A stretch of DNA of 64,000 nucleotides, taken from positions 1-64,000 of IMG/VR virus record IMGVR_UViG_3300032282_006516. One strand, written 5' to 3'. A model generated the notes under the pieces. That model made no database searches and had not been told where the DNA came from. It saw only the letters and a program-made list of their open reading frames with translations. The stretch comes from a virus. Position numbers and translations under genes: made by a program. Position 1 is the stretch's first letter, and each line of letters begins with the position of its first letter. Positions 7,940 to 61,629 of this stretch are shown piece after piece.

Positions 7940-8737
7940 TTACTCGTCGAGACCCATGTGCTGCCGCAGCGTGTTACCCATCTGGGTTTTCATGCGGCTC
8001 ACCTGGGACTGGCTCTTGTTCAGACGCTTGGCGAGGTCGCCGGTCGATTGAATCTGCGGATACCCGTTCGTGCCGAACGTGTAGTGGAAAAGGTCGTGCA
8101 TGTGCGGCTGATTCGGGAAGATGGTCGGCAGGATGTGCTGCGCCACCGCAATCTGCTGCTCCTCGAAGCCGCGCCCGGTACGGTCGGCCCCGGCGGAGTA
8201 GTCGAACGCCTCCTCACCTGCCGACCGGCCCATCGGTACGTCCCGCTTGACCGACTTCAAGATGGTGTCGATGCGCCGAGGCGTCATCCCCAAGTGGTCA
8301 CCAAGCTCATCCGTTGTCGGCGGACGGCCCAGTTCGTCGGTCAGCTGATTCTGCGCCCGCTGAATCTTGCCGATGTGCCCCGACTGGCCTTCGGGGATGT
8401 AGGCGAGATTCTGGTAGCGGTTGTTGTACCGCATCGCCTTCGGCAAGCGTGCCTCAACATGCGTGTTCAGTGCAGCACCCCGAGAGGGGTCGTACGTCTG
8501 AAGCGCCTTGATGAGATGCGTCTGCAACTCGGCGCGGAAGGCGCTCTCCGGAACTTGCGGCGCCTTCCACTTGCGAATCTTCTGCGCCACGACCGGCTCG
8601 TAGAGCTTCAGAAGTGGCTGAAGGTGTTCCGGCTGCTCGCCGTTACTCTTCCACTGGTGCCAGAGGTCGAGTTCTTGCTGCTTCCGCTTTGAAACCGAGG
8701 CGGCCTTCTCGGCCATGTACTCGTCAAAAGGATTCAT
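7940..8737 (-). CDS. Phage-encoded sigma-70 family RNA polymerase factor
   Basis: 265 residues. Region 2 spans about 38-110 (YDPSRGAALNTHVEARLPKAMRY is the core-binding/-10 recognition helix pattern), region 3 about 125-165 (LTDELGRPPTTDELGDHLGM), and region 4 about 222-262 (STGDLAKRLNKSQSQVSRMK, a helix-turn-helix). Region 1.1 is absent, as in group 3 sigmas. It would direct host RNA polymerase to phage promoters; the non-host-like GGAATAAG promoters in this window are plausible targets (inference). AGGACC precedes the ATG. Confidence 0.85.
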   Translation of the reverse strand: MNPFDEYMAEKAASVSKRKQQELDLWHQWKSNGEQPEHLQPLLKLYEPVVAQKIRKWKAPQVPESAFRAELQTHLIKALQTYDPSRGAALNTHVEARLPKAMRYNNRYQNLAYIPEGQSGHIGKIQRAQNQLTDELGRPPTTDELGDHLGMTPRRIDTILKSVKRDVPMGRSAGEEAFDYSAGADRTGRGFEEQQIAVAQHILPTIFPNQPHMHDLFHYTFGTNGYPQIQSTGDLAKRLNKSQSQVSRMKTQMGNTLRQHMGLDE

Positions 8738-10202: not shown

Positions 10203-11015
10203 TTAGATTTTACCTTTGAACGCGCCTGGAATCCCGATGCCGAAGTGCTCTCCCTTCGGCTTGGCGATGTCCGCAATCGAAGGGCCGGGCGGAGCCGTTA
10301 CCTTTGGCGCGCCAATGTGCTGTGTCTTGCTGAGTTGGCCACGCGGGGAAGAGACGTTTGCGTGTTTCTGAACTGCGCGGCTCAGGATTGGAGCACGAAA
10401 CGCCGGTATGTCGCTCTGTTGCCGGTGCGCGCCGCCAAACTGGCCATTCCAAGAAACGGCGGGCGACACGTCAGCTTGCTTTCGTAGTTCTTCGACAAAG
10501 ACCGCTAGTTGCTCCGTGGAGGTATCACGAAGTGCTTGCGCCTTCTTCTCTATCGCGCGCAGCTTCTCGTAGTACTGCGGGTCTTCGGTGAGGTGGTCCA
10601 TGGCGATGGAACGAGCAAGCGCATGTCGGCTCGTGTGCTCGTGCTCGATCTTCTCACCCGCATTGAGTTTCTTGGCGGGGAAATCACTTTCGGTCTTGTG
10701 CGCCTTCGACGCCAGGCCGCCAGGGAGGGCGGTAATCCCTCCCGCATTTTTCTGCACGGCGGTATCCAGGCGCGGCTGGCGCCAACCCGGTAGGTCGCTC
10801 GCCATCATGAAGTTGCCGCGTGTTGGAGCACTCGCAGCTTCTTTCACTGCGAACGAGCCGGTTTTCTGAACCGGAGCGCGCAGTGAAGGCACACGCATCG
10901 GAGGCAAGTCGCTCGCCCCGCTCAGAATGACCGGATTGAGAGGCGTTGAGTACTGCGACGTGGTGAACGCCGTCTTCGTCAACGCGCCTAGCGAGGCAAA
11001 AAGCTCAGAGCGCAT
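10203..11015 (-). CDS. Virion-type protein with three SD(L/I)P...AVQK repeats and DUF5661-like core
   Basis: 270 residues. A motif occurs three times: SDLPPMRVPSLRAPVQK near 35, SDLPGWRQPRLDTAVQK near 73, and SDIPAFRAPILSRAVQK near 201. Between copies 2 and 3 lies a segment (EHEHTSRHALARSIAMDHLTEDPQYYEKL) like DUF5661, a helical module frequent in large-phage proteins. The N-terminus (MRSELFASLGALTKTA) is a degenerate form of the DELxKIA-type leader seen in neighbours. AGGAG before the ATG. Probably packaged in the virion; function unknown. Confidence 0.65.
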   Translation of the reverse strand: MRSELFASLGALTKTAFTTSQYSTPLNPVILSGASDLPPMRVPSLRAPVQKTGSFAVKEAASAPTRGNFMMASDLPGWRQPRLDTAVQKNAGGITALPGGLASKAHKTESDFPAKKLNAGEKIEHEHTSRHALARSIAMDHLTEDPQYYEKLRAIEKKAQALRDTSTEQLAVFVEELRKQADVSPAVSWNGQFGGAHRQQSDIPAFRAPILSRAVQKHANVSSPRGQLSKTQHIGAPKVTAPPGPSIADIAKPKGEHFGIGIPGAFKGKI

Positions 11016-11017
11016 GG

Positions 11018-12475
11018 CTACTCCTGGAAAAAGCGCAGAAGCTCGTCCGAAAAACCGCCAAATTGCGCAGCTTCTTTCGACTTACCGAGAAGACTACGTC
11101 CCTTTGCGGCAAGACGCGCGGCGTCCTCCCGATTGTGCGGTGTGGGTTCGCCCCAAGCCTGCGCCGAGAGCGCAAGACGCGTCGGACGGCCCTTCTCGTC
11201 CTCCATCGGCCCGCGAGGGTTCGTGAAGAAGCGCGTGAGGAAGCTCCCCTTGCGCTTTGCTTTCTCGCCCGTTGGATTTTTCTCCTTCACGCCCGGCTTG
11301 AGGTGCGCACCCTCTTCACGAGCGAAGTGTGCCCGACCTGCCGCCGTCAACCCGCCGGTCGCCGCGTGCTGCTTGTCCGCGCCCACGGGGTTGCGCTCCA
11401 GCTCCGCAATCTTTTGAACTTCGTGTACGAAAGCCGCGTACGTCGCCGAAGAAATCTTGCTCTTGAGCGGCATCCCCTGAAGCGCTTCGTGCGAGCGGGG
11501 CTCGATGTAGGAGTGAACCTGAGACAGGTTCTCGTGCGCCGAGGTGATGTGGTCGCTCACCCAAGGCGGCAGGTGGTCGTTCGGGTGAATCGCCCGAAGC
11601 ATGTCGCCGGACATGTCCATCAAGTGGTGAAGACGCGAAAGCGTCATCCCGCCTTCCGGTTGCGGCTCCGTCGCCGAAGGGTCGTGCTGAAACTCCAGGT
11701 GTTCGGCGGCGCTTTTAACGCGCGCGGCAGTAGTATTCGGCACGATTTCCTTACCCTTCCGGTCGCCTTCGACCTTCTTCTTGTCCGTAGCGAGTTGCTC
11801 TTTCTTCGTGAGCGACTCCCACTTGTCCTTGGGAAGATACCGGTGCGTCACGCCACCACGCTCCGCCTTTTCGGGCGTACCGGGGCGCGTCTGCCAGTCC
11901 TGCTTCGTCCATTTGGCGAGGCTGTTCTTGGACGCGGACGGCTTCTTGCCAACGTACTTACCGCCCTCGGACTTGTACTTCTGTACCGCGAGCTGCGCAG
12001 CGCGGGCCGACCATTTACCGCCCAACTGCGCCTTGGCCTCGCTCTTGGCCTTCGACCACAGCTCGGGATTCTTCTTCGTCGCGACATCGGGCCCTTCGGC
12101 GGAAGCCGTGACCAGCTTGCCGCCCAACGGAGCAAGGCGGTCGATTCCCTTTTCCAGCCCCTTTTTCGCTGCCAGGTACGCTGCCGAGATGCCCGGAACC
12201 GGCACGGCCGTCATCGGAATCATCTCGGGATTTTCAATCAGCGCATGCGCCCCGCTCTGGAGCGCGCCACGAATCTTCGGGTTGGCGACTCGTGAGAGAA
12301 GATTCGTCGCCTTTGCCTTGAGCGGCTCCTGAACGCGCTGAAACGCCCCCTCTACACCCTGTTGGAGAGCCGCAAGTTCCTCTGGCCCGCGCTCACGCAT
12401 CAGAAGACGCGGCGTGTTGGGGATGTCTGTGGCGCCGAGGCGCACAAGACGCTCAAGAAGGGCCTGCTTGTCCAT
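11018..12475 (-). CDS. DUF5872-containing virion-associated protein
   Basis: 485 residues, start ATG 12475 (TAATG overlap). Residues roughly 138-250 match the DUF5872 pattern (GGKWSARAAQLAVQKYK, KYVGKKPSASKNSLAKWTKQDW, HRYLPKDKWESL). Downstream it carries YAAFVHEVQKIAE, a DELxKIA-like peptide in the middle, and ends FGGFSDELLRFFQE, so tag-like peptides occur twice. Hydrophobic helix near residue 90. Context with an SNF2 ATPase and other tagged proteins suggests an internal/ejected virion protein. Confidence 0.65.
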   Translation of the reverse strand: MDKQALLERLVRLGATDIPNTPRLLMRERGPEELAALQQGVEGAFQRVQEPLKAKATNLLSRVANPKIRGALQSGAHALIENPEMIPMTAVPVPGISAAYLAAKKGLEKGIDRLAPLGGKLVTASAEGPDVATKKNPELWSKAKSEAKAQLGGKWSARAAQLAVQKYKSEGGKYVGKKPSASKNSLAKWTKQDWQTRPGTPEKAERGGVTHRYLPKDKWESLTKKEQLATDKKKVEGDRKGKEIVPNTTAARVKSAAEHLEFQHDPSATEPQPEGGMTLSRLHHLMDMSGDMLRAIHPNDHLPPWVSDHITSAHENLSQVHSYIEPRSHEALQGMPLKSKISSATYAAFVHEVQKIAELERNPVGADKQHAATGGLTAAGRAHFAREEGAHLKPGVKEKNPTGEKAKRKGSFLTRFFTNPRGPMEDEKGRPTRLALSAQAWGEPTPHNREDAARLAAKGRSLLGKSKEAAQFGGFSDELLRFFQE

Positions 12476-14826
12476 TACCAACCCTTCCCGCTTGAATCCT
12501 TAGGAGGTTCAGGAGTCGCGACTTCAGGTGTGGGATTTTTCTTCCAACCATCACCCTCCACCTTCGTCTCCAGTTGCGCAATCTGGCGGCGCATGCGCTT
12601 CAACTTTTCCGCGTCGCGTAGTTCGTTGTGCGCTCGCACATTTTCAAGCTCATTGAGCGCAATCATGCGGCGGTACTTATCCAAGTAACCCGTACCAAGA
12701 GCGCCAAGCGCATGTGCGCCCGCCGTAGCTGCAGCTAGTCCAAGCGCCCTTTTGTTTCCCAGCAAGAGCGACTCCGCCATTGGCATCGCGCTCACACCTG
12801 TCCGTAGTGCGATGGATTTGCCGATAGTCTTCCAGTCCAGATTTTCCGCACCTTCGCGGAGTGCATTTTCTTTGGCCGGGGTCTTGAGTGCTTGTCGGGC
12901 CAAATCACGCCCTTCTGCCATAAGGTTAGACTGTCGGCCCTTTGCTATAAGATGACCGATTGCACCACCGGCAAGCCCACTGACCGCCGCCGCCGCGGGG
13001 TGCACTTGTTGCATCAAACCGGCACCAATTGCCACGCCTGGAAGCGTGTAGGCCAGCTCTGCCGCAACGCGCGGTTTCCACGAAGAGGAAAGCTCCTTCG
13101 AGGCCTCCGTCGTAGCAATCGCAGCCTTTTTCTCTTGATTAGGCAACAGCGCACGGAACTGGTTAATGAGGTCTTCCTTGCTCTTCGACATTTGAGCGAG
13201 GTACTCATCAACCGACTTATCCGGCTCACGCCCGACGAGTTTGTTACCTAGCCTCGTAAGCGTCCCTTCCGGGCGAGAGGCCAAGTAGTTCTCAATCAAC
13301 AACTTACGCTTTTCGGGCGGCAAGTCGGCATGGCTCATGTACCGCGCGCCACGCCCTTCCACCTGCTTGAGTTTCTCCGCATTCCAGTGCGGCTCCAGAA
13401 TCTGCATGAGGCGCGTGCCCTTGAGGTCTAGGCCCTCTCCTCCAGCTGAAGACAAGAGCAAGGTACGCAGCTTCCCTGCATTGTAGTCTTTGACGAGCTG
13501 TTCCCGCTTCTTGGAGGGCATGCTCCCGGTGAACTCACCGTAGGGAATCTTCGCCTCGTCGAGCCGGCGCTTGTAGGGGTCAATCCCCGCCGGCAGGTAG
13601 TTAGAGTAGACGACGGCACGCGACGTAGGGTCCTGCGCCAGAGTCGCCTGAAGGCTCTCAAACGCCTTTTGAATCTTCGGGTCTTCGGCCTTCGTTCCCG
13701 CTGGCACAAACGGCGCCGTGGTATTCGTCGCCTGTCGCGCCGCGCCCAAAAACGCGTTCAACTGTTGTGACTCCTGCTTACTCGGCGGGAGTCCACGCTT
13801 GACCTTGGCGGCAACCCAGGCAGGGGCTTGCCCCATAAGCGTGTCGTACACCTTGAGCTGGTCCGGCGTCATCGGCACGCGCACATCTCGGCGCTCGACT
13901 TCGGGAAAGTTTTCCGTACTTCCGGGGTGGAAATCTACCCACTTCTTGAAAACGTCTCGAAGCTCAGGTGCGGTCTTTTGGTAGAGAACCGGAACTACAC
14001 CCGGCTTGACCTTATTTTCATCGGAACGCACCAGGTTGGCGGCCCGCTGGAATAGACTCGGGTTTACCGCCTTCTCCGTGATGTATCGGCGCGTGAACTC
14101 GTCCTTGTCGTAGGGCAGGACTTTCGCGTCCGCGGCCAAGTCGATAAGCGGCGCGATGTCCGAAGGATGGTTGTAAAAAGGGCTGCCCGTAAGAAGAAGG
14201 CGCTTCTGACTGGTGTTTCCTTTGAGCGTCTGGAACGTCGCGGAACCCGGATCACGCGCACGGTGTGCTTCGTCCACAACCAAGAGGGGCGCCGTAGGAG
14301 AGACCCCTTTCGTCGCCATGTTCTGCATGGACATGAGCGACGCGGGAGGTGTCTTCCCCTTCAAATGCTTCGCTCGTTCTTTTTCGTAGTTTCCCAGAAG
14401 GGCCGCGGGCGCGATGACCTGCGACGGCTGACCCAGTGCATCCTGCGCGGCGATGCTGGTTAGCGTCTTTCCGGAACCAAGGCCGTGAACTACAAGAAGT
14501 CCAGGCTGATTCTCTTGCTGGATGCGGTCAACGACGCGTTGCTGGTGCGGCAGCAACGCCGTTGAGACTGCGGCAATTTTGCCTAGTTCATCCGTAAACC
14601 CGGCCAGCGACGCGCGCTTGCTGTCGGGGTTCGCCGTGTGTTCGTCGTCTTTAGGAGTGTCGTACTTGGCCTTTGCCGCACGACGCCCCTCTACGGTGCC
14701 GTAACTTTTTGGTGTCTTCCCGAGAGAGTGGCTCTGCTGCGTTGCGATAGCCCAAGCCTGGGACTCCGACATTTTCGGGTTACGCGCCATCAGATGCTGT
14801 GCACGGTCGTGAATCCACTTGGGCAT
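12475..14826 (-). CDS. SNF2-type DNA-dependent ATPase/helicase with virion-tag and membrane segments
   Basis: 783 residues. N-terminal module PKWIHDRAQHLMARNPKMS and AIATQQSHSLGKTPKSYGT (1-55), then the shared tag GFTDELGKIA (76-85). The SNF2 motor follows: Walker A GLGSGKT (115-121), DEAH box VDEAH (184-188), LLLTGSP (210-216), AGGEGLDL (461-468) and motif VI QVEGRGARY (488-496). The last 240 residues contain glycine-rich hydrophobic segments (PAAAAVSGLAGGAIGHLIA near 620) and a C-terminal coiled coil. SNF2 enzymes translocate on or remodel DNA-protein complexes. The fusion to a tag and membrane-type helices suggests it enters the cell with the DNA (inference). Confidence 0.85.
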   Translation of the reverse strand: MPKWIHDRAQHLMARNPKMSESQAWAIATQQSHSLGKTPKSYGTVEGRRAAKAKYDTPKDDEHTANPDSKRASLAGFTDELGKIAAVSTALLPHQQRVVDRIQQENQPGLLVVHGLGSGKTLTSIAAQDALGQPSQVIAPAALLGNYEKERAKHLKGKTPPASLMSMQNMATKGVSPTAPLLVVDEAHRARDPGSATFQTLKGNTSQKRLLLTGSPFYNHPSDIAPLIDLAADAKVLPYDKDEFTRRYITEKAVNPSLFQRAANLVRSDENKVKPGVVPVLYQKTAPELRDVFKKWVDFHPGSTENFPEVERRDVRVPMTPDQLKVYDTLMGQAPAWVAAKVKRGLPPSKQESQQLNAFLGAARQATNTTAPFVPAGTKAEDPKIQKAFESLQATLAQDPTSRAVVYSNYLPAGIDPYKRRLDEAKIPYGEFTGSMPSKKREQLVKDYNAGKLRTLLLSSAGGEGLDLKGTRLMQILEPHWNAEKLKQVEGRGARYMSHADLPPEKRKLLIENYLASRPEGTLTRLGNKLVGREPDKSVDEYLAQMSKSKEDLINQFRALLPNQEKKAAIATTEASKELSSSWKPRVAAELAYTLPGVAIGAGLMQQVHPAAAAVSGLAGGAIGHLIAKGRQSNLMAEGRDLARQALKTPAKENALREGAENLDWKTIGKSIALRTGVSAMPMAESLLLGNKRALGLAAATAGAHALGALGTGYLDKYRRMIALNELENVRAHNELRDAEKLKRMRRQIAQLETKVEGDGWKKNPTPEVATPEPPKDSSGKGW

Positions 14827-14830
14827 GACA

Positions 14831-15193
14831 CTACTCTTGCGGGTGTTGGCGCATGTAGTCGCGCAGGTTATTCATCTCGACGTGCCGGTCCAGTGCCGTG
14901 CGCGCGATAGGAATCACGCTTGCACCGAGCGCACCCTTCGTCGCCGATGCCGCAATCGTGCGAAGACGCCGTCCCGGCCCACCCAAAACCCGAGACGGGC
15001 CGCCCTCAACCAAATCGGCAACCCCGCCGATTATCGGAGACGCCACCGCGCCAATTGCGGCGTAGCGCCCCAACTGCCCGAGCGTCGGCTTGCTTTTCTC
15101 CAACGACTCTAGGCGGTCCAGGGACGACCTAGCCTCTTCGTGGGAAACAGCCCCAAGTTTCTGCAGTTCATCGAGACAGGCGCGTACGTCCAC
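14831..15193 (-). CDS. Small tagged membrane-type virion protein
   Basis: 120 residues, GTG start after AAGGGG. The tag variant CLDELQKLG occupies residues 6-14; residues 43-60 (RYAAIGAVASPIIGGVADLV) and 85-100 are Gly/Ala-rich amphipathic or membrane helices. Sits between the SNF2 ATPase and another tagged protein. Confidence 0.65.
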   Translation of the reverse strand: MDVRACLDELQKLGAVSHEEARSSLDRLESLEKSKPTLGQLGRYAAIGAVASPIIGGVADLVEGGPSRVLGGPGRRLRTIAASATKGALGASVIPIARTALDRHVEMNNLRDYMRQHPQE

Positions 15194-15196
15194 AAC

Positions 15197-16357
15197 TCAC
15201 CCCTTGTGCGTGAGGAGTTTATGAAGTTCGGGTGCAGCCAAAATACCAAGGCCGCCAACATCAAGCGCCGCGTGGGCACCCTCACCGAGCAGGCGTTTCT
15301 TTTCCCAACCGTGTGGGTCTTGGTCATGGCGAGAACGAAGTTTGGCCTGTAGCGTATCCAGCCCCGGAACCGCGAGGACACCAAGACCCGCCAACTCAAC
15401 CGCGTGTTCTCCCTTGGGAGAGGTGAGAGCCTGGCGGACGTTTTGTAGAACACCCGCCTCCTTTGCCCGCGCCTTCACAGCCGGCACATCACTACGCGCC
15501 GCCAGCTCGGGAAACTTCTTCGCGACGTCCTTGTAGACCTCGCGCTTCTCCGCCGGAGAACCGAACTGTTTCACCCGTGCGAGCGCGTTCGCAGCGTGCG
15601 CCTTGTCGTGAATCGGATAGGCCGGCTTGCCCGTATCCGACTGCTTGGCGCTGAGTGCGAAGTTCTTCGCCTTGATGTGTTCACGTCCGGTTTCGGTGAG
15701 TTCAGCGGCGGTCTTTTCAGGGTCTTCCCCCTCAGACAGCCTCTTCTTCTTGTTATTGACCGAACGCGCAGCCGCGTACAAGAGCCCACCTGCCGTAGTA
15801 ACGCCCGCTGTACCGCGGGCAGCGGTCACGGCGCTACGCTCCGCGGTGAGGTTTTTTTGTGTTTTATGTAGGGCCTCATTCATATGGCTGGCGGCCTCTA
15901 TGACGCGGTTAAAATTCTTGGGGTCTTTCTGATACGCATTTTGCGCAGCGCGTGCCACGGCTTCATCTCGCGTCGTATTCAGATGTGTAAGGCGCTGTCC
16001 CAGATTCTTCGCGCGTTCGCCCGTAAAAAGCTGCTTTACCCGTCCCAGCCCCTTTTCCTTTGCGAACGAGACAGCGGCCGCGGACTTCTCCGGCTCAACC
16101 GCCTTGTTGCCGTAAGTACGTGCGTGCCCAGCACGAAAACTATCAACCACAGAACTATTCCGAATTTTATGCGCCAGGTTCTCAACCGCACGATGCCCGT
16201 GTCCGGCCACTTGTCCCACCTCTTCGGCCAAGTTGAACGGACGCGATTGCGACAGGCGTTCTTTCACTTTTTGGGCAAGAGGCGCGTGATTCTCATTTGC
16301 CTCGGCAATCTTGTTCAACTCGTCGAGAAACGACGCCTGCACGATTTCGTAATCCAT
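15197..16357 (-). CDS. Tagged virion protein with DUF6582-like domain
   Basis: 386 residues, ATG at 16357 with AGGAG upstream. Tag FLDELNKIA at 10-18. A central membrane-type helix (TAGVTTAGGLLYAAARSV near 190) precedes a DUF6582-like module (FALSAKQSDTGKPAYPIHDKAHAANALARVKQFG) that is frequent in large-phage virion proteins. The C-terminal third has two short hydrophobic repeats (LAGLGVLAVPGLDTL and VGGLGILAAPELHKL). Likely internal virion protein. Confidence 0.7.
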   Translation of the reverse strand: MDYEIVQASFLDELNKIAEANENHAPLAQKVKERLSQSRPFNLAEEVGQVAGHGHRAVENLAHKIRNSSVVDSFRAGHARTYGNKAVEPEKSAAAVSFAKEKGLGRVKQLFTGERAKNLGQRLTHLNTTRDEAVARAAQNAYQKDPKNFNRVIEAASHMNEALHKTQKNLTAERSAVTAARGTAGVTTAGGLLYAAARSVNNKKKRLSEGEDPEKTAAELTETGREHIKAKNFALSAKQSDTGKPAYPIHDKAHAANALARVKQFGSPAEKREVYKDVAKKFPELAARSDVPAVKARAKEAGVLQNVRQALTSPKGEHAVELAGLGVLAVPGLDTLQAKLRSRHDQDPHGWEKKRLLGEGAHAALDVGGLGILAAPELHKLLTHKG

Positions 16358-16371
16358 CGCCCGCACTCCTT

Positions 16372-17217
16372 TCAGGGCTGCGCGTTCAAAAACGCCGCAA
16401 CAGTATTCGCTACTTGAGAGTTGTAGGTCTGCCGAATCGACAAATCCTGCTCGATTTGAATGCCCCAAGAAGAGGCGCAACGGTTCGTGATGTTCGACGG
16501 AGAGTTTCCTTCGTACCCGCTCGCCGCCGACGCCAGGGCCACGGTCTTACCGGGCACGACGGGAATAAGCGCCGCTTGAAGCGCTGTTTTCACTGCGAGA
16601 GGTGCCGACCCACCAATCAAGATGCCAGACTGGGAGAAACCGTGAAAAGAAACGGCGTACTTCGCCTTTCCTCGTTCCACGTTCCAGTTGTGAAGTAGAG
16701 GCCAGGAGTTGATGTCGATGTCCGTGCTCGTGATGTGGTAGCGGTTGTACGCCCCACCACCAATTCGACGACCGACGCAGTACCAGTAGTTGCAGTTCAG
16801 CGCGAGGGCCGCCGTCAGCGCCTGCGTATCCACACCAACTTCAATCGCCCCGCCATGCGGAGCGATAATCATGTACTTGTTGGACTGCCCCTGGGTTGCG
16901 TACTCAATGATGTCGTCGTTCGGGTCTACCCCCGGCGCCGACAAACGGTTTGGTGCTGGGAATGTAATCGAGCCCGCCGCGGGGGCGGTCAGTGCAGCAA
17001 AACGCGACACCGCCGAGGCGTCGATGTAAAGCGAGTCATCCTTCGACGCCTCCGAGACGGTGAACAGAACGAAATCGGCGGGCGTCGTAGAGCCGCCCGT
17101 GTTTACACGGACTTGCTTGCCCAGCGCCGACGCGGGTCCTGCGCACCGTTCCTTCTTGCCGACAATCGTAGGGTACGTGCCGTTCGACACGCGGATTGTA
17201 GTTGCCACGCCCGCCAT
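16372..17217 (-). CDS. Poly-gamma-glutamate hydrolase-like zinc enzyme (PghP family)
   Basis: 281 residues. The PghP-type metal site is visible: APHGGAIE (His121, Glu126), RYHITSTD near 160 and SFHGFS (His192), with an IGG segment after it. Family members cleave poly-gamma-glutamate capsules or biofilm and are found in phages of capsule-producing hosts. An N-terminal extension of about 110 residues may mount it on the tail. AGGAG precedes ATG. Strong call for fold; substrate inferred. Confidence 0.75.
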   Translation of the reverse strand: MAGVATTIRVSNGTYPTIVGKKERCAGPASALGKQVRVNTGGSTTPADFVLFTVSEASKDDSLYIDASAVSRFAALTAPAAGSITFPAPNRLSAPGVDPNDDIIEYATQGQSNKYMIIAPHGGAIEVGVDTQALTAALALNCNYWYCVGRRIGGGAYNRYHITSTDIDINSWPLLHNWNVERGKAKYAVSFHGFSQSGILIGGSAPLAVKTALQAALIPVVPGKTVALASAASGYEGNSPSNITNRCASSWGIQIEQDLSIRQTYNSQVANTVAAFLNAQP

Positions 17218-17243: not shown

Positions 17244-17753
17244 CTAGGTGTGCTCGGCGGGCGAGTTGAACGCCCCGATACCCGTCGACTGCTGCCCAAG
17301 CCCCGTCACCGTCGTTGCGTTGTCACGCTGGTCGTAGCGGTCAACGACGTTCGAGTCGTCCTTGCTCGGAACGTCTCCCTTGCGCCGGGGCTTCTTCGCC
17401 TCCTGATAGGCGAACGGCGACTCCCCCGTTGGGATGGGAGGAACGTCACCGTAGATGTAGCCGAGCTTCTGCCCGACCGCGATGTTGTCGACCGTGCGCG
17501 TCGGCACCTCACCGGGGCGCTTCGGGAGCTGCGCAGCACCTGGGTCATCTGAGCTATCGCCGCGGACGTTTTGAGGATTGCCCTGGCTGTCGGCCTGCTT
17601 CCAAAGCGTGCCGTCCTTCTCCTTACGAAGAAGCGTGTCGACGCTCATCGGACGAATCCCCGAACGCGCCTTCGGGATGTTCATCGCTCCGTGAGAGGCC
17701 GCGATCTTCGTCAGCTCATCGACAAAGCTCGCAAACATCAGAGACTGTTTCAT
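17244..17753 (-). CDS. Tagged hydrophilic virion-type protein
   Basis: 169 residues from ATG 17753 (ATGA overlap with the hydrolase gene upstream). FVDELTKIA at residues 10-18. The rest is polar and low-complexity (PKRPGEVPTRTVDN, KKPRRKGDVPSKDD) and probably disordered. Nothing enzymatic is visible; it looks like a carrier for the tag or a connector. Confidence 0.6.
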   Translation of the reverse strand: MKQSLMFASFVDELTKIAASHGAMNIPKARSGIRPMSVDTLLRKEKDGTLWKQADSQGNPQNVRGDSSDDPGAAQLPKRPGEVPTRTVDNIAVGQKLGYIYGDVPPIPTGESPFAYQEAKKPRRKGDVPSKDDSNVVDRYDQRDNATTVTGLGQQSTGIGAFNSPAEHT

Positions 17754-18337
17754 CGGACGCTCCCGACAGTTTTGGTCATGGATGACCGCTGCAAGTCTAC
17801 AGGGCGCGTGTTCCCCACAAAACGATTCTTGGCAAACGGAACCGAGGGGTACGCATTCGCCACAAGCTGAGAGCAGAAGAAACGGTCGACGTCCTGACGC
17901 TTGTTCTCGTGCTTTTCGTTCCAAACAGGAAGAGCTTGTCGTGCGACTCCCAAGTAGTCGTACTCTTTACCCACTTGGCTCTTTGCGTACTGCACGGCGT
18001 CTTTACGCGCCGCATCGGGCGCTTTGACACGCAGCGCCTTGAACCGGTACTCCGCGCCAAAGTCCTCTAGGGGCTTCCGCGTGACACCTGTCTCGGGATG
18101 GATGTCGACCACCTGCCCATCGCCGACATAAAGCGCCGCGTGGTAGTTTTTTGTCCCACCTTGGAACACAGAAAGGGCACGCCCCAGTACCGATGGGTCG
18201 CGCCGTCCCCCAACAAGAATGTCCCCCGGCTCTAGTTTCGACTGTAGGCGGGGTAGGCCGCGTGGGGCAGTCGCTGCCGCGGCAATTTTCGCGAGTTCAT
18301 CCGAAAAAGCCGCGAGGGTGTCCGAATGGAGGCGCAC
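17750..18337 (-). CDS. Tagged YiiX-like (permuted NlpC/P60, peptidase C92-type) hydrolase
   Basis: 195 residues. Tag FSDELAKIA at 11-19, then a permuted papain-like core: PGDILVGG (37-44), NYHAALYVGDG with catalytic His66, GKEYDYLG (123-130) and FFCSQLVANAY with nucleophile Cys155. Such enzymes cleave amide or ester bonds in peptidoglycan or lipids. Carried on the virion, it could help wall entry. Overlaps the next gene by ATGA. Confidence 0.75.
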   Translation of the reverse strand: MRLHSDTLAAFSDELAKIAAAATAPRGLPRLQSKLEPGDILVGGRRDPSVLGRALSVFQGGTKNYHAALYVGDGQVVDIHPETGVTRKPLEDFGAEYRFKALRVKAPDAARKDAVQYAKSQVGKEYDYLGVARQALPVWNEKHENKRQDVDRFFCSQLVANAYPSVPFAKNRFVGNTRPVDLQRSSMTKTVGSVR

Positions 18338-44344: not shown

Positions 44345-44649
44345 AGGAGCACCTCGATACCGGCCACCCGCGCACGGCGAAGCAGCACGTCCCGACGACC
44401 GCCCTGACGCCACACGCGGCCGTCCGAGATGTCGAGGAAATGCGTACCGTCCTGCGTGCGCAGGCGCCCCGTCAACGGACCTTCGGACACCGGCTGTTCA
44501 GCCGGAGCGGTCACAACAATCTGCGAACCCAGAAGGTTCAGCATGTCCTGCGCGGCCGTTTGAATTGCAATCTTAACGTACGCTTCCAGGTCATCGACGA
44601 AACGAAGAACGTGCGGCGCGATGGACTGGTTCAGTTGCTCGTGTGTCAT
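44341..44649 (-). CDS. Hypothetical protein
   Basis: 102 residues; helical half (YVKIAIQTAAQDMLNLLGSQIVV) and a beta half (GRLRTQDGTHFLDISDGRVWRQGG). Between dCMP deaminase and dNMP kinase, coupled by ATGA on both sides. Unknown. Confidence 0.6.
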   Translation of the reverse strand: MTHEQLNQSIAPHVLRFVDDLEAYVKIAIQTAAQDMLNLLGSQIVVTAPAEQPVSEGPLTGRLRTQDGTHFLDISDGRVWRQGGRRDVLLRRARVAGIEVLL

Positions 44650-46001
44650 GTGAACTCCTTGTGGTCGGAAGATTGCAGCCGGGACACGATAATGCCCACG
44701 CGCTCAAGAAGTTCAAGCGATTCTTTTCGCCGGTAATCTTGGGCGTACCAAACGCGCACGACTCCACCGAGATTGATGAGACGTTTCGCACACATCAAGC
44801 AGGGCAGGTGCGTGCAGAAAACAATCTTCGGCGTGTCGCGGGGCACGTCGCAGTTGATGACCGCGTTCTCTTCTGCGTGAAGGCAGTTTTGCGCTACCAT
44901 GCCTGCATTCCCGGCGGCGTACCACCCCGACCGGGTCTGAAGGTTGTACACATGGCCCGCCCACTCCTTGCGCTCGATGAGCCGGACCTTGTTCGACGCT
45001 ACCTTGAGGGGGACACTGTTCTGTCCCTGGCAGCGCGGTACAAGGTCTCGCACACGACCATCCAAAACCGCCTGCGCAAACACGGCGTCCTTCGCCAAAT
45101 GGCCGAGGACCTGCGCCGGCATAAGAGCGCCTCGCGGCTGCGCCTCCCCATCGAAGACCTCGTGCGCCGCTACAACGCCGGAGAATCCGCCAACGGCCTC
45201 GCGGCTGTATTCCACGTAAGCCGTGGTGCTATCGAACGCCGTCTTCAAGAGGCGGGAGTTCTCGACATCGAGCGGCGAACTACGCGCCGCTCCCGACGGG
45301 CGCGCGAAGTCGATGGCCGAGTGCGCCGGGCCTTGAACGCCGAGAAGCGGGGGACGCTCCAGGGCAGCGGGGAGGCTTGGTTGGTCGAAGAGACACAGAA
45401 AGCCGGACTCTTCGTAGAACCTCAGAAAGCAGTCGGAGGATACAACCTCGACCTCCTGGTCGAGCACACCGTCGCCGTGGAACTGATGACGGGCGCCAGC
45501 ATGCCGTACCAACCGGCCCGCTATGGCGAGCGACTCAAATACCTGCTCGACAGGCACACGCTTTTGGTCGTGTGGAGCTGCGGACGACACACCCTCGTCC
45601 CAGCAGGCGTGCAAAAGCTCGTCGCCCTCTTGAAGAGTCTCTGCAGCAACCCAACCCCGCCCAAGCACCAGTACTGGGTGATTCGGGGTGACGGTGAAGT
45701 CGTCGTACGCGGTGACCAGCCGTACGACCGTGCCCTCGTACCAGCGGCGGTACGCGCGTTCGACCGACAGTGCCGTCGTAAGCGTACCTGACACAAAACA
45801 GCCACAGTTTCCTACCGCGGCTTCACCGTGCACGTCGCAGTCGTTGTCGCACCCTGCCGCGTTGCCGTTGTACCCGACAGCCAGCACCTTTCTGAAATCG
45901 GGCGTAACAATCGCGCAACCCACACGCAGGCGACGACACGTCGAACGCTCGCTCATGCTGGAAGCGAGACGCATGTAAATGTCTTGAAACGAAGGACGCA
46001 T
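44646..46001 (-). CDS. dCMP/cytidine deaminase (ComEB-like) split by an intein
   Basis: 451 residues. Exteins: 1-67 plus 373-451 rebuild a 146-residue zinc deaminase with GNCG|CLHAEENA (Cys/His/Glu active site) and PCLMCAK (Cys ligands). The intein lies exactly before the active-site Cys. Start ATG 46001 is in a TGATG overlap. Deamination of dCMP feeds dUMP and then dTMP synthesis. Splicing would be required for activity. A homing-endonuclease-like gene sits antisense in the intein. Confidence 0.85.
   Translation of the reverse strand: MRPSFQDIYMRLASSMSERSTCRRLRVGCAIVTPDFRKVLAVGYNGNAAGCDNDCDVHGEAAVGNCGCFVSGTLTTALSVERAYRRWYEGTVVRLVTAYDDFTVTPNHPVLVLGRGWVAAETLQEGDELLHACWDEGVSSAAPHDQKRVPVEQVFESLAIAGRLVRHAGARHQFHGDGVLDQEVEVVSSDCFLRFYEESGFLCLFDQPSLPAALERPPLLGVQGPAHSAIDFARPSGAARSSPLDVENSRLLKTAFDSTTAYVEYSREAVGGFSGVVAAHEVFDGEAQPRGALMPAQVLGHLAKDAVFAQAVLDGRVRDLVPRCQGQNSVPLKVASNKVRLIERKEWAGHVYNLQTRSGWYAAGNAGMVAQNCLHAEENAVINCDVPRDTPKIVFCTHLPCLMCAKRLINLGGVVRVWYAQDYRRKESLELLERVGIIVSRLQSSDHKEFT
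44886..45800 (-). mobile_element. Intein in dCMP deaminase (305 residues)
   Basis: Block A CFVSGTLTT starts at Cys1; block B has the TPNHPVLV (TxxH) motif; block F/G reads WAGHVYNLQTRSGWYAAGNAGMVAQN, followed by extein Cys. The end is ...Gln-Asn|Cys with Gln in place of the usual His. The 180 or so residues between B and F have no sense-strand LAGLIDADG or HNH motif. Confidence 0.85.
44952..45791 (+). CDS. Homing-endonuclease-like protein antisense to the intein (double HTH + Vsr/EDxHD-like nuclease)
   Basis: 279 residues, wholly inside the intein coding region on the other strand, codons in exact register with it. Two HTH repeats at 12-47 and 69-104 share DLVRRY-x-x-G, LA, VS-x-x-x-I and RL-x-x-x-GVL. 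The C-terminal core has Glu141 (GEAWLVEE), YNLDLL with Asp167 and VAVELMTG with Glu177, like Vsr-fold/EDxHD homing endonucleases such as I-Bth0305I (named family; exact match not tested). Start ATG 44952 has only a weak AAGG. It probably moves the intein. Confidence 0.75.
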   Translation: MARPLLALDEPDLVRRYLEGDTVLSLAARYKVSHTTIQNRLRKHGVLRQMAEDLRRHKSASRLRLPIEDLVRRYNAGESANGLAAVFHVSRGAIERRLQEAGVLDIERRTTRRSRRAREVDGRVRRALNAEKRGTLQGSGEAWLVEETQKAGLFVEPQKAVGGYNLDLLVEHTVAVELMTGASMPYQPARYGERLKYLLDRHTLLVVWSCGRHTLVPAGVQKLVALLKSLCSNPTPPKHQYWVIRGDGEVVVRGDQPYDRALVPAAVRAFDRQCRRKRT

Positions 46002-46309
46002 CAAAGGGCTCCTCGGGCGGCTAAAACTTCGCGCATCACATCCCGTGCGTAGTCACAAGCGCGGCGCTGTACGCGCCACGCAAGCGGGCTACCGGCGTAG
46101 GACACCCCAAAAACTTCGGGGCGTGTGAACTCCTTGTCGTAGTGCTGCGGTCCGTCTTCACGCGACGGCCACACCACACGCAGCGTGAACTCCCCGTCCT
46201 TGCCGGGAAGAAAGTCTACGGACGTAGCGTAGGTTGCGCGCCGGATAGGGTCGGCCCACCCACGCAGCTGCCCGCAAAGAGTTTGAAGAAGTACCGTACC
46301 TCGGTCCAT
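46001..46309 (-). CDS. Hypothetical protein
   Basis: 102 residues. Basic alpha/beta protein (LLQTLCGQLRGWADPIRRA, EFTLRVVWPSREDG). Coupled to dCMP deaminase by TGATG. Its ATG lies ten bases from the start of a divergent gene. Unknown. Confidence 0.6.
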   Translation of the reverse strand: MDRGTVLLQTLCGQLRGWADPIRRATYATSVDFLPGKDGEFTLRVVWPSREDGPQHYDKEFTRPEVFGVSYAGSPLAWRVQRRACDYARDVMREVLAARGAL

Positions 46310-57601: not shown

Positions 57602-59443
57602 TTAGCTCGTTGCCGCCGGAAGAAGTTTTCCAGCCGAAGGCGAGGGAAGTTCACGTACTTGAATTTGAGGCTCTGGAATAAGGGTTTCAGCCGAATGCGC
57701 AGGAAGTTTCGGCGCTTGAGCTTTCGGCATGCCCTTAAACAGAGGTTCTCCTGAAACGCCACGACGAACCATGTTCACGCCAGACTGCGCGGTATTACCA
57801 ACCGCCTTTCGGAATGTCTGTCCAGCGTACATGCGACCCCCGATTCCGCCCGCGGCACCACCAAGCGCGGCTCCCGCAAGTCCGCCCTTCAGCGCACCAG
57901 AAAAACCATGCCCGGACTCTGCGCTTGCCGCTCCTCCAGCCGCACCGACGGCCGCACCACCGAGCGCGCCAGCCGTACCGGGGTTCTTCATCGCCCACGC
58001 ACCGAAACGCTGAAGTCCCTTGGTGACATCCACTGAGCCAAGTGCCTTCTTCTCCATCTGCGCACGCAGGGCCGCATGCTCTGCCATCGCCTGCTTAATC
58101 AAGCGCGCCGACCCCGTAACAATCTTTCCGAGCGAAGGGTCGCCTTGGTTGATAAGCTGCCCCCGCCAGTTCCTTTGAGCCGGCTGGTACAGCATGGCTT
58201 CGTTCGCGGCTGGGTCAAAAACCGGTGTTCGATGCGACATGCCATACTCCAGGTCAATCGGCGCTGCCGACCCCGGTGTATGCCCAAATGACGCCGGCGT
58301 TGCTGGCTCTTGCAGCGGTGCGCTAAATCGAGATTTTGTGGGTGACGGCGCATGCTCTGGGTCCACCAACATGTTGTGGACATCCACCAGATTCTTCTGG
58401 TTCTCCTTTGCCTCACGCACCTGCTCTGGCGTCAGCACGGCAGGACGAGGCGCAGGAGCGGCAGGAGCGGGGTGAGGTGCAGCGACGCCACCGGCAGGCG
58501 GCGCGGGTGCGCGCCCGACAGGCGCCGCCGGCACACCCGTTACCGATTGATGCTGAAGGTTTTTCAGGTCGGAAAGGCTCTCATCAATCACGCCCTTTGC
58601 CGCCGCACTGTTTGTGAGGTGCTGACTCATGCCGCCCGCGAGTCCACCGACGGCGGCGCCACCCAGACCCCCCTTCACTGCCCCCGAGAGACGATTCCCC
58701 GGACCTCCGGCCACCGCGCCGCCGACGGCACCCGCCGCACCGCCCACCAACGCGCCTGCGGCGGCACGATTCTTCATCGCCCATCCGCCAAAGTTTTTCA
58801 ACGCATCCGCTGCGGGCACCCCGCCCAAGGCAGTTTTCGCCATCATCGTGCCGGCCTGCGTCCCGTACGACGTCAGCGCCTGAACGTGGGCCGCTTTCTG
58901 CATGTCCTGCCGCGCCAGCATCCGACCGAAGTTGTCCGCAAACGCCACCTTTGCGACACCGCCGCCAAGCCCCTGCGCAGCATCTTGCGCTCCTTCAGCG
59001 GGCACCGGACCCGGAGCCCCCGCACCCTGGGCGGGCATGTCGGGCGCCTCGGGCATCGCAGGGGGCGCACCTTGCATTTTTGCAAGTTCAAGCTCCAACA
59101 TGCGCTTCTTGAGCTGGATCTTGCTGCGAAGCTCCCAAGGGTCCCCCGCCGCACGCTGCTCTTCGCGGCGCTGCTGGTCGAGGATGTCGGCCTGAAGCTC
59201 TTCCTGCTCCAGTCCGAGAGCCTGCTCAAAAAGCGGCGTACCCCGGAACCGCTCCAGGAACACCGAACCGCTCTCTTCCGGGTAGGCGAGCTTGAGGTGC
59301 CCGTACAAAGTCTCCACCGGAGTACCGCTCGCCAGAGCGCGCAGCTCATTTTCCGGAAGGCCGCTAAGAAGCGACGTCAGCTCGGCCTGTCCTTGCTTGG
59401 CCAACTCCGCGGTGTATGCGACTTTGAGGAATTCGTTGAGCAT
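57602..59443 (-). CDS. Internal virion protein with duplicated glycine-zipper module
   Basis: 613 residues. N-terminus MLNEFLKVAYTAELAKQG is tag-like. A module of about 75 residues occurs twice (near 205-280 and 475-550): KALG..., FG.WAMKN...AGALGGAAVGA, then SGALKGGL.GAA.GG. Such glycine zippers form membrane-active helices. Pro/Ala linkers and a Gln/Glu coiled coil lie between. Probably an ejection protein that helps DNA cross membranes. Confidence 0.65.
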   Translation of the reverse strand: MLNEFLKVAYTAELAKQGQAELTSLLSGLPENELRALASGTPVETLYGHLKLAYPEESGSVFLERFRGTPLFEQALGLEQEELQADILDQQRREEQRAAGDPWELRSKIQLKKRMLELELAKMQGAPPAMPEAPDMPAQGAGAPGPVPAEGAQDAAQGLGGGVAKVAFADNFGRMLARQDMQKAAHVQALTSYGTQAGTMMAKTALGGVPAADALKNFGGWAMKNRAAAGALVGGAAGAVGGAVAGGPGNRLSGAVKGGLGGAAVGGLAGGMSQHLTNSAAAKGVIDESLSDLKNLQHQSVTGVPAAPVGRAPAPPAGGVAAPHPAPAAPAPRPAVLTPEQVREAKENQKNLVDVHNMLVDPEHAPSPTKSRFSAPLQEPATPASFGHTPGSAAPIDLEYGMSHRTPVFDPAANEAMLYQPAQRNWRGQLINQGDPSLGKIVTGSARLIKQAMAEHAALRAQMEKKALGSVDVTKGLQRFGAWAMKNPGTAGALGGAAVGAAGGAASAESGHGFSGALKGGLAGAALGGAAGGIGGRMYAGQTFRKAVGNTAQSGVNMVRRGVSGEPLFKGMPKAQAPKLPAHSAETLIPEPQIQVRELPSPSAGKLLPAATS

Positions 59444-61629
59444 CAGCCTGCCCTCTTGCTGAGAATGTCCTTGAGATTGCGAGCAATCGAACCGACGTGC
59501 TCACCTGACCGTTTCAGCGACCCCACAACTTGCGGGCCATTTGACGCACCAAGCAGCGCACCGCCGAGAGCCCCCATCCCTGCCGATACGCCGGGGTGTT
59601 CGTTCGCGAACTCACCCATCGTCAGTCGTGCACGCGACTGCGCGAGGTTAAGCGCATCGCGATAACCTCGGTCCGGCTTCGCCTCCAGCTCTTGGACCTT
59701 TTGCCGAAGCGGGTCGTAATCCGCACGAGATTCTAGGTAGCCGAGACCCCCACCCATGGCTGCACCAGCAGCGGCATGCGGAAGAACTGAAACGGCTTTT
59801 CCAGCCTGCATGGTGAGGTAGTTTTTGAGGGACGCCTGCTTACCGGCGACGCCAAAAGGGAGGAAGTGCGACAAGACCTCCTTGCCCGGCGTCTGCCCCT
59901 GCTGGTCCTTCTGGTTCATCGACGTCGCCGGATTCGCGTTCGCGAACATCGGTTCCGTGCCCGCAGCCGGTGCGTTGTTCTGGTCCTCTCCCATCGGGGC
60001 AACCGAGTTCGGTGCCGCACCGGGGCTCGCCGCCTGACCCGCAGGTCCCGAAGTCGGCTCGGGCGCACTGCTCGGCGCCGCAGCCTGGCTCGCCGCTTGG
60101 GCCGCGGCATCCATGCCCGTCAACGACGGAGGCTCTTGCGATGCCGCCTGAAGCAGCGTCCCACGAAGCTGCTGGTACGCCATGCGCATCGCAGCAGCGG
60201 CTTGCTGCTGCTGGAGAATCTGGTCTTGCGCTGCCATGGCTTTTTGCGTCGACGAGGCGACCTGCGCTTGGTACGCCGCCGTCTGCTGCTCGTTCAGCGC
60301 CTGTTGTTGCTGCGCCTGCTGAACTTGCTGCTGAAGCTGCTGTGCCTCTTGCTGCTGTTGCTCCTGAGCCTGCTGCGCCTGCTGGAGCTTCTGGCGGAGG
60401 AAGTCGATGTGATTGTTCTCCGCACCCTGCTGCGCCTGTTGCTGGAGGGCGAGGTACTGCTGAACCTCCGGGGCAAGCATGGGCTCAATCGGCGCGCCCG
60501 GCATGGGCTGCGGAGCCGCTTCCTGCTCCGGCTGCATGCCCATCTCGTCCAGAGCAAACTTGAACGCCGATGCCGCCTTTTGATATGCCGCCGCCGTCTT
60601 CCATTCCTCCGGCAGCGCGCCCGTTTGGTTAAAGTGGATAACACTCGGCGTAGACTGCTGCGCGTCTATATGGGCCGCAATGCCACGCGCAGCGCGTTCA
60701 CGCGCCAAAACACGGGCATGCTCCTGCGCGTATCGCTTACCCCCACGCACAGCACCACCCAGAGTGCCCAAAGTGGCGCCAGCTAGAGCACCACCAAAGG
60801 CTCCGTGACTGAGTGGCTTTTTCGCAAGATGTGCTAACAAGCTACCGCCGGCAGCGCCGCCCAAAGCACCAAGCAGTTGTCCGCCCCGCACGTTTTGACG
60901 GTACGTAGGGACTGCTTCTCTGTTTGCCGCTTGATGCGCCGCTACTTCGTTTGGGCTAACTACGTGCATCAGGAAGGCATTCCTGCGTGCGATGTCGCGG
61001 TCTAGTGGTTGACCGTTGTGCATCGTCGCGTAGGAATCCACCAACTGACGTAGCTGGTCATTCGCAGTCTTCTCGTGCCGATGACGGTCCATCGACCCGC
61101 CCACTTCACGGCCCGCCTTGCCACCCATGTGCTGACCGAGCCAAGCACCACCCAACGTCGCCATCGGGTTGCCCTTACCGTAGTGGTGCATGAGCGCTGC
61201 GCCGGCAGCGGCCCCAGCTCCACGCCCAGCCAGCTCACCGTGCCGCTCGCTGCGATGCGCGTGCTCTTTCGCGAACTCCGCACTGAGCGAAGCACGAGCG
61301 CGTTCGTGCCCCGTCTCTTCCGGCGACTTGGACGCCGCCGTTTTTGCAGGGGGCACAGCGTGCTGCCCTTGAGCAGCGGGAGGAAGGGACACAGGGGGCG
61401 CGGCCTGCATGTTCTGACCCTGCGCCGTAGGCGGCAGTGTCATGGGCGCGCCCATTCCCATCGCCTCGGCCTGCTTCAGCAGGGCGTACTGCTCCTGCAC
61501 GGAGAGTGACTCAAACGCCGCGTCTAGGTCCGCAACGGTGGCTTGCTTCTCCACACCGCGAACCTGGATGAAGAACGCAGCGGCCTCGGCTTGAGGGATG
61601 CCCTTGAGCAAAAAGTCGTCGAAGTTCAT
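59443..61629 (-). CDS. Large internal virion protein with Gln-rich coiled coil and glycine zippers
   Basis: 728 residues, TGATG coupled to the next. Glycine-zipper helices near 130-175, 245-290 and 640-660; a Gln-rich coiled coil near 400-450 (LQQAQQAQEQQQQEAQQLQQQ). The start (MNFDDFLLKGI) is related to the tag idea only weakly. Looks like a partner of the preceding gene in DNA injection. Confidence 0.65.
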   Translation of the reverse strand: MNFDDFLLKGIPQAEAAAFFIQVRGVEKQATVADLDAAFESLSVQEQYALLKQAEAMGMGAPMTLPPTAQGQNMQAAPPVSLPPAAQGQHAVPPAKTAASKSPEETGHERARASLSAEFAKEHAHRSERHGELAGRGAGAAAGAALMHHYGKGNPMATLGGAWLGQHMGGKAGREVGGSMDRHRHEKTANDQLRQLVDSYATMHNGQPLDRDIARRNAFLMHVVSPNEVAAHQAANREAVPTYRQNVRGGQLLGALGGAAGGSLLAHLAKKPLSHGAFGGALAGATLGTLGGAVRGGKRYAQEHARVLARERAARGIAAHIDAQQSTPSVIHFNQTGALPEEWKTAAAYQKAASAFKFALDEMGMQPEQEAAPQPMPGAPIEPMLAPEVQQYLALQQQAQQGAENNHIDFLRQKLQQAQQAQEQQQQEAQQLQQQVQQAQQQQALNEQQTAAYQAQVASSTQKAMAAQDQILQQQQAAAAMRMAYQQLRGTLLQAASQEPPSLTGMDAAAQAASQAAAPSSAPEPTSGPAGQAASPGAAPNSVAPMGEDQNNAPAAGTEPMFANANPATSMNQKDQQGQTPGKEVLSHFLPFGVAGKQASLKNYLTMQAGKAVSVLPHAAAGAAMGGGLGYLESRADYDPLRQKVQELEAKPDRGYRDALNLAQSRARLTMGEFANEHPGVSAGMGALGGALLGASNGPQVVGSLKRSGEHVGSIARNLKDILSKRAG

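Follow-up and report, generated by a model that had tools for sequence, protein, structure and literature searches.

The first 64,000 nucleotides of a 121,428 bp virus record (IMG/VR IMGVR_UViG_3300032282_006516), here called the window, carry a minus-strand gene (12475..14826) for a 783-residue SNF2-type ATPase, as defined by its open reading frame (ORF), Pfam and PHROGs matches and an AlphaFold model. The SNF2 motor is genuine, and it is preceded by a short sequence tag that recurs in neighbouring late proteins. The tag, the late position of the gene, a swappable N-terminal module and fusions of the polyvalent-protein type in homologs provide indirect evidence that the protein is probably packaged in the virion. 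That it is virion cargo ejected with the genome, a double-stranded DNA translocase that frees the incoming DNA of proteins, we regard as an even call.

Pfam models for Helicase_C (4.3e-14) and SNF2-rel_dom (3.8e-12), as well as ResIII, match the protein, as does phrog_62, ‘DNA helicase’, among the PHROGs (2.5e-45). The sequence-only reading of this DNA had recognized a full SNF2 motor with Walker A, DEAH and motif VI, and this is borne out: HGLGSGKT (Walker A), DEAH, LLTGSPFYN, LLLSSAGGEGLDL and LEPHWNAEKLKQVEGRGARY are intact, and they are invariant or nearly so across 10 homologs. This conservation suggests that the motor is active. Helicase motifs I–VI, two RecA lobes and SNF2-type motifs V and VI place the protein among the SNF2-type superfamily 2 (SF2) ATPases. 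Structure prediction, which had been proposed as a check, gave a model (pLDDT 86) with the fold of SNF2 remodellers; residues 84–565 superpose on INO80, SRCAP, SWR1, ISW1 and CSB, with a best Z of 31.5, and CSB heads the Foldseek list of PDB matches. Pfam, the model and structural alignment delimit a two-lobed core at residues 86–560 (13147..14571, minus). In one homolog (L101:8507-12451) the Walker A/P-loop is interrupted by an intein with LAGLIDADG and splicing domains.

The core is followed by a 223-residue extension (residues 561–783; 12478..13146, minus) that is preserved only in the closest homologs (L092–L094). It had been described as consisting of membrane-like Gly/Ala helices. The model and the composition agree on helices rich in Gly and Ala (27% of the C-terminal ∼220 residues), but the highest 19-residue hydropathy, 1.42, falls under the usual threshold of 1.6 for a transmembrane helix, and a transmembrane C-terminus was dropped.

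Directly before the motor, at residues 77–85, lies the tag FTDELGKIA (14572..14598, minus), a candidate encapsidation or propeptide signal. The DELxKIA pattern of the sequence-only reading proved genuine. Its strict form, F.DEL.KIA, has just four matches across all six reading frames of the window, every one of them in frame and within late minus-strand ORFs of a 4-kb stretch (14.5–18.4 kb). We fetched nine related phage records and called genes in them; together with the window phage they hold 39 tag matches, compared with a mean of 1.0 expected when residues are shuffled within proteins, a contrast that is not a probability because the genomes are related and the counts not independent; the gene calls, moreover, are heuristic. 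Two-thirds of these matches (26/39) fall in the first 40 residues of the protein.

The tag belongs to a broader pattern. KTA is the most enriched tripeptide across 1360 proteins (251 versus 110). Within the window phage, K-[TIVL]-A reaches 3.5 times expectation in the region of the head and RNA polymerase (RNAP) genes and 2.6 times in the 49–61 kb region, while it stays at about expectation in replication genes and shows no enrichment in tail-fibre and small genes; the reversed control motif, A-x-K, is also close to expectation. Strong enrichment of K-[TI]-A was seen in head-region proteins of the record and its relatives, for example at 57602-61629 and at 65775-79333 of the record. On alignment, the motif stands in the context F..(D/E)EL(E)K[TI]A, with S or A as the next residue, which resembles a combined protease and targeting signal. 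A K-x-A lies at most 25 residues before the SNF2 core in 37 of 61 distinct homologs, compared with 10.7 by shuffling, and the top enriched tripeptide in the late region of the distant Salmonella phage Arash is KEA (16 versus 3.7). We read the tag and K-x-A as a shared assembly signal, and by analogy with T4 and giant phages the tag may unite a targeting helix with a site for the prohead protease. The T4 capsid targeting sequence and the head propeptides of giant phages are likewise short N-terminal segments on internal proteins, with possible maturation cleavage (PMC5694885, PMC7411985), although the motif is [L/I]xE, SxE or AxE there and of the K-x-A type here, where cleavage is putative.

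Residues 1–68 (14623..14826, minus) form a separate N-terminal module, beginning MPKWIHDRAQ, which in relatives is carried by late proteins other than SNF2. It heads such proteins at L006–L012 and, at L009, an unrelated 950-residue protein in the syntenic slot; in the SNF2 proteins of relatives the tag adjoins the motor directly, without the module. No match to the module was found among 50,697 isolated phages.

In a profile search for SNF2 homologs, viral contigs, many of them 160–210 kb long, yielded 80 loci, and 84,980 bacterial and archaeal genomes yielded only two. Two SNF2 homologs (L171, RXKB01000001.1; L172) are in contigs binned as Candidatus Dependentiae and an uncultured bacterium, which are possibly mis-binned phage contigs or prophages. 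Most of the phage homologs lie in late regions of virion genes, in several different slots, which favours packaging. Across the 67 dereplicated SNF2 loci, homologs lying within 10 kb belong to the head/RNAP region at 32, to the cargo cluster at 13, to a baseplate-like group at eight and to the replication cluster at seven. The baseplate-to-sigma slot that holds the gene in the window is used by eight more loci (L092, L101, L115, L117, L120, L126, L132 and L138). A tail-fibre/lysis spot that carries SNF2 in three related records (G001, G003 and G004) is without it in the window phage, so the gene has moved. When records were picked by their terminase, blind to SNF2, all 25 encoded RNAP and eight encoded SNF2, with fragments in two more; RNAP thus belongs to the core of this phage group, and SNF2 is accessory. 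Homologs are fused to InPase (L094, L142), to LigD-phosphoesterase/ligase (L005, L161) and to NUDIX, and InPase domains are known from phage polyvalent proteins, whose packaging is predicted (PMC5512222). Like polyvalent proteins, several of these relatives (L094, L142, L005 and L161) combine effector domains; the window protein has one enzymatic domain together with module, tag and helical tail, in a late gene context. In the 1329-residue product of L005:5466-9455 (G004), the tag and the SNF2 motor are combined with a LigD 3'-phosphoesterase, an ATP-dependent DNA ligase and an InPase-like part. That the gene is accessory and has moved, that the module is swapped and that homologs are fused to enzymes acting on nucleic acids are all in keeping with an injected effector that works on entering DNA.

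From packaging to the client of the motor, we infer the following course. The protein would be synthesized late and would enter the prohead by virtue of its N-terminal F-x-D-E-L-x-K-I-A, as one form of the K-x-A motif common to head proteins, and might be cleaved there. It would then be ejected together with the genome and, in the cell, use ATP to move its SNF2 motor along double-stranded DNA, stripping proteins from the incoming phage DNA or remodelling them; its targets might be nucleoid proteins of the host, restriction complexes or polymerases that have stalled. If this is true, a stand-alone, tag-addressed SNF2 motor joins the small set of phage-injected enzymes, and F-x-D-E-L-x-K-[IT]-A and its variants could reveal virion cargo in metagenomic phage genomes without proteomics. 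DNA protection or transcription by jumbo-like phages in the first minutes would also become directly testable.

The sequence-only reading had called such an activity a new role, which overstates the case. P1 DarB, a head protein, is co-ejected with DNA and shields it against type I restriction (PMC5512222, PMC12810830). Injected polyvalent proteins with SNF2 domains have already been described (PMC5512222), and for group 1 jumbo phages a link between a Snf2-type helicase and phage RNAP has been proposed (PMC7824862). With DarB and the SNF2 polyvalent proteins the present family shares the SNF2-type ATPase, the late context, effector fusions (InPase and others) in several relatives, and head location and injection, which are predicted here and were shown for DarB. 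It differs from them in that neither an adenine methylase domain nor a DarB-like methylase partner was found, in being usually a stand-alone motor of 460–490 residues, and in its F-x-D-E-L-x-K-I-A tag and its occurrence in RNAP-encoding phages. Injected SNF2 effectors are thus known, whereas a stand-alone, tag-bearing family has, as far as we found, not been described previously.

Several points weigh against packaging and ejection. A search for a DarB-like methylase partner found none, there being no methylase domain in the SNF2 protein and no match to phrog_11801 in the record (in relatives, phrog_11801 matches the helicase part only). The protein therefore falls outside the DarB family, though on the translocation side it may act in a similar way. 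The tag could help late complexes outside the head to assemble, and distant homologs such as that of Arash are without it. Packaging of the tagged proteins is likely, as predicted from their genes. Head and tail labels were assigned partly by gene position, many of the proteins matching no family, and at about five SNF2 loci replication genes are the closest recognized neighbours. As to virion proteins in relatives, the particles of PA-SR01 were characterized by SDS-PAGE, which gave four bands (PMC10286775). No paper was found for Arash, and it is uncertain whether its ‘structural protein’ labels originate from mass spectrometry.

A serious second candidate for the client of the motor is an RNAP encoded outside the window. 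It is a single chain of 2144 residues with beta and beta' fused (81241-87675 of the record; L068/L069), which matches Rpb2_6 (1.7e-61), Rpb1_2 (1.8e-27), Rpb1_5 (1.5e-18), Rpb2_3 and Rpb1_1 and contains the motif NADFDGD; such a fusion, present in all 25 terminase-picked records, seems to be part of the core of this uncultured phage group. The SNF2 motor might be packaged with the fused RNAP as a dedicated factor that aids release, recycling or promoter and elongation steps, in the manner of NPH-I and VETF in the poxvirus virion and of CSB/Rad26 or RapA in cells. The phage supplies a sigma-like factor as well as the polymerase. Of 50 SNF2 records, 43 have RNAP, among them all those that reach 112 kb, and the two genes are a few kb apart in G005, G007 and G009 and immediately adjacent in Arash, where SNF2 follows RNAP. 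Profile matches of the SNF2 protein include NPH-I (8.6e-16), RAD26 and VETFS, CSB leads the PDB matches as noted above, and the best viral fold matches, the PA-SR01-sized top one aside, are the 70-kDa subunits of giant-virus early transcription factors. A common fold is, however, no proof of function, and the terminase-picked control shows that co-occurrence reflects group membership; a dedicated RNAP partnership, which had looked very strong, was downgraded after it. RNAP homologs lie within 10 kb of SNF2 in only about 15 of 67 loci, by a rough estimate near random placement. The fusion partners of SNF2 are ligase, InPase and NUDIX, never RNAP, and in PA-SR01 SNF2 is present and PF00623 was not detected. 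Overall, we consider a dedicated transcription role possible but rather unlikely.

A more elaborate version, a poxvirus-like machine in which fused RNAP, sigma-like factor and SNF2 ATPase would be co-packed through a common N-terminal K-x-A signal and co-injected, with the motor acting on the virion RNAP, seems improbable to us. NPH-I is part of the complete viral RNAP (vRNAP) packaged into vaccinia virions (PMC12618233). NPH-I and the VETF small subunit resemble the present protein in being SNF2/SF2 ATPases of a virus with its own multisubunit-type RNAP, and profile and fold similarity is measurable; by contrast, the present virus is bacterial, its SNF2 gene is accessory and the RNAP partnership is a possible one. 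The Swi2/Snf2 (Rad25-related) helicase of group 1, phiKZ-like phages is also a Snf2/SF2 ATPase from phages with multisubunit-type RNAP, and sometimes adjoins RNAP genes. Here, however, the RNAP is one beta-beta' polypeptide, the motor is SNF2/Rad54-like and the Rad25/XPB-like helicase has its own gene, in the replication cluster. Membership of XPB/Rad25 was rejected, the XPB model being absent from the NCBIfam matches of the SNF2 protein and matching the helicase at 98316-100040 (7.8e-23). Bacterial RapA/HepA belongs to the SNF2 family too, with RNAP recycling as one candidate function, but no RapA model is among the NCBIfam matches and RapA is absent from the best 60 PDB profile matches, and membership is not supported.

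The gene might instead encode an ordinary intracellular helicase that works late, in transcription, recombination, packaging or DNA repair, and merely lies among virion genes; the tag would then mediate interactions that have nothing to do with packaging. Intracellular SNF2/SF2 helicases are encoded by many phages, a few SNF2 homologs adjoin replication genes, and the ligase and phosphoesterase fusions suggest DNA repair. Yet the tag and N-terminal module are common to the late cargo cluster, homologs show polyvalent-type fusions, and the replication cluster has the XPB-like helicase of its own (98316-100040), so the role of replication helicase does not simply fall to the SNF2 protein. We therefore find this explanation doubtful. 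A defence-system SNF2 (DrmD, DpdE, ZorD or BrxH) was rejected on weak matches, those in NCBIfam being far under the cut-offs.

Packaging of the motor is also in keeping with where the gene lies. Structural genes of the record are on the minus strand, marked by a terminase (phrog_675, 6.4e-51) and a tail-sheath-like protein (3e-7), and the plus strand carries the replication genes, near 97–114 kb. As had been claimed, the SNF2 gene stands beside wall-degrading proteins and away from replication genes. These neighbours are a C92 permuted papain-like amidase tagged FSDELAKIA (17750..18337, minus; Pfam, 1.7e-10) and a poly-gamma-glutamate-hydrolase-like protein of the same cluster (16372-17217; 3.7e-26). 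Tag scanning and sequence comparison also placed a protein with FVDELTKIA at 17244..17924 (minus); its stretch RPMSVDTLLRKE is, judged by eye, similar to the N-termini of the SNF2 fusions L126, L132 and L138. The ORF list and tag scan gave another tagged late protein, with FLDELNKIA (15197..16480, minus), whose true start is likely MDYEIVQAS, making the tag N-terminal. A small late protein with the variant CLDELQKLG (14831..15193, minus) lies 4 nt upstream of the SNF2 start codon. Downstream, a late gene (11018..12481, minus) overlaps the SNF2 stop, and this stop-to-start overlap couples both genes; its product has DUF6321 (1.6e-27), a weak DUF5872 match and the variant tags FVHEVQKIA and FSDELLRFF. 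The cluster continues with a protein that has the Pfam domain DUF5661 (10203..11015, minus), and a sigma-70 region 3-like factor, recognized by domain match (7940..8737, minus), marks the end of the cargo slot. Elsewhere in the window, a dCMP deaminase (44646-46004, minus) is interrupted by an insert that matches phrog_15127, ‘head protein’, and is possibly an intein or mobile insertion.

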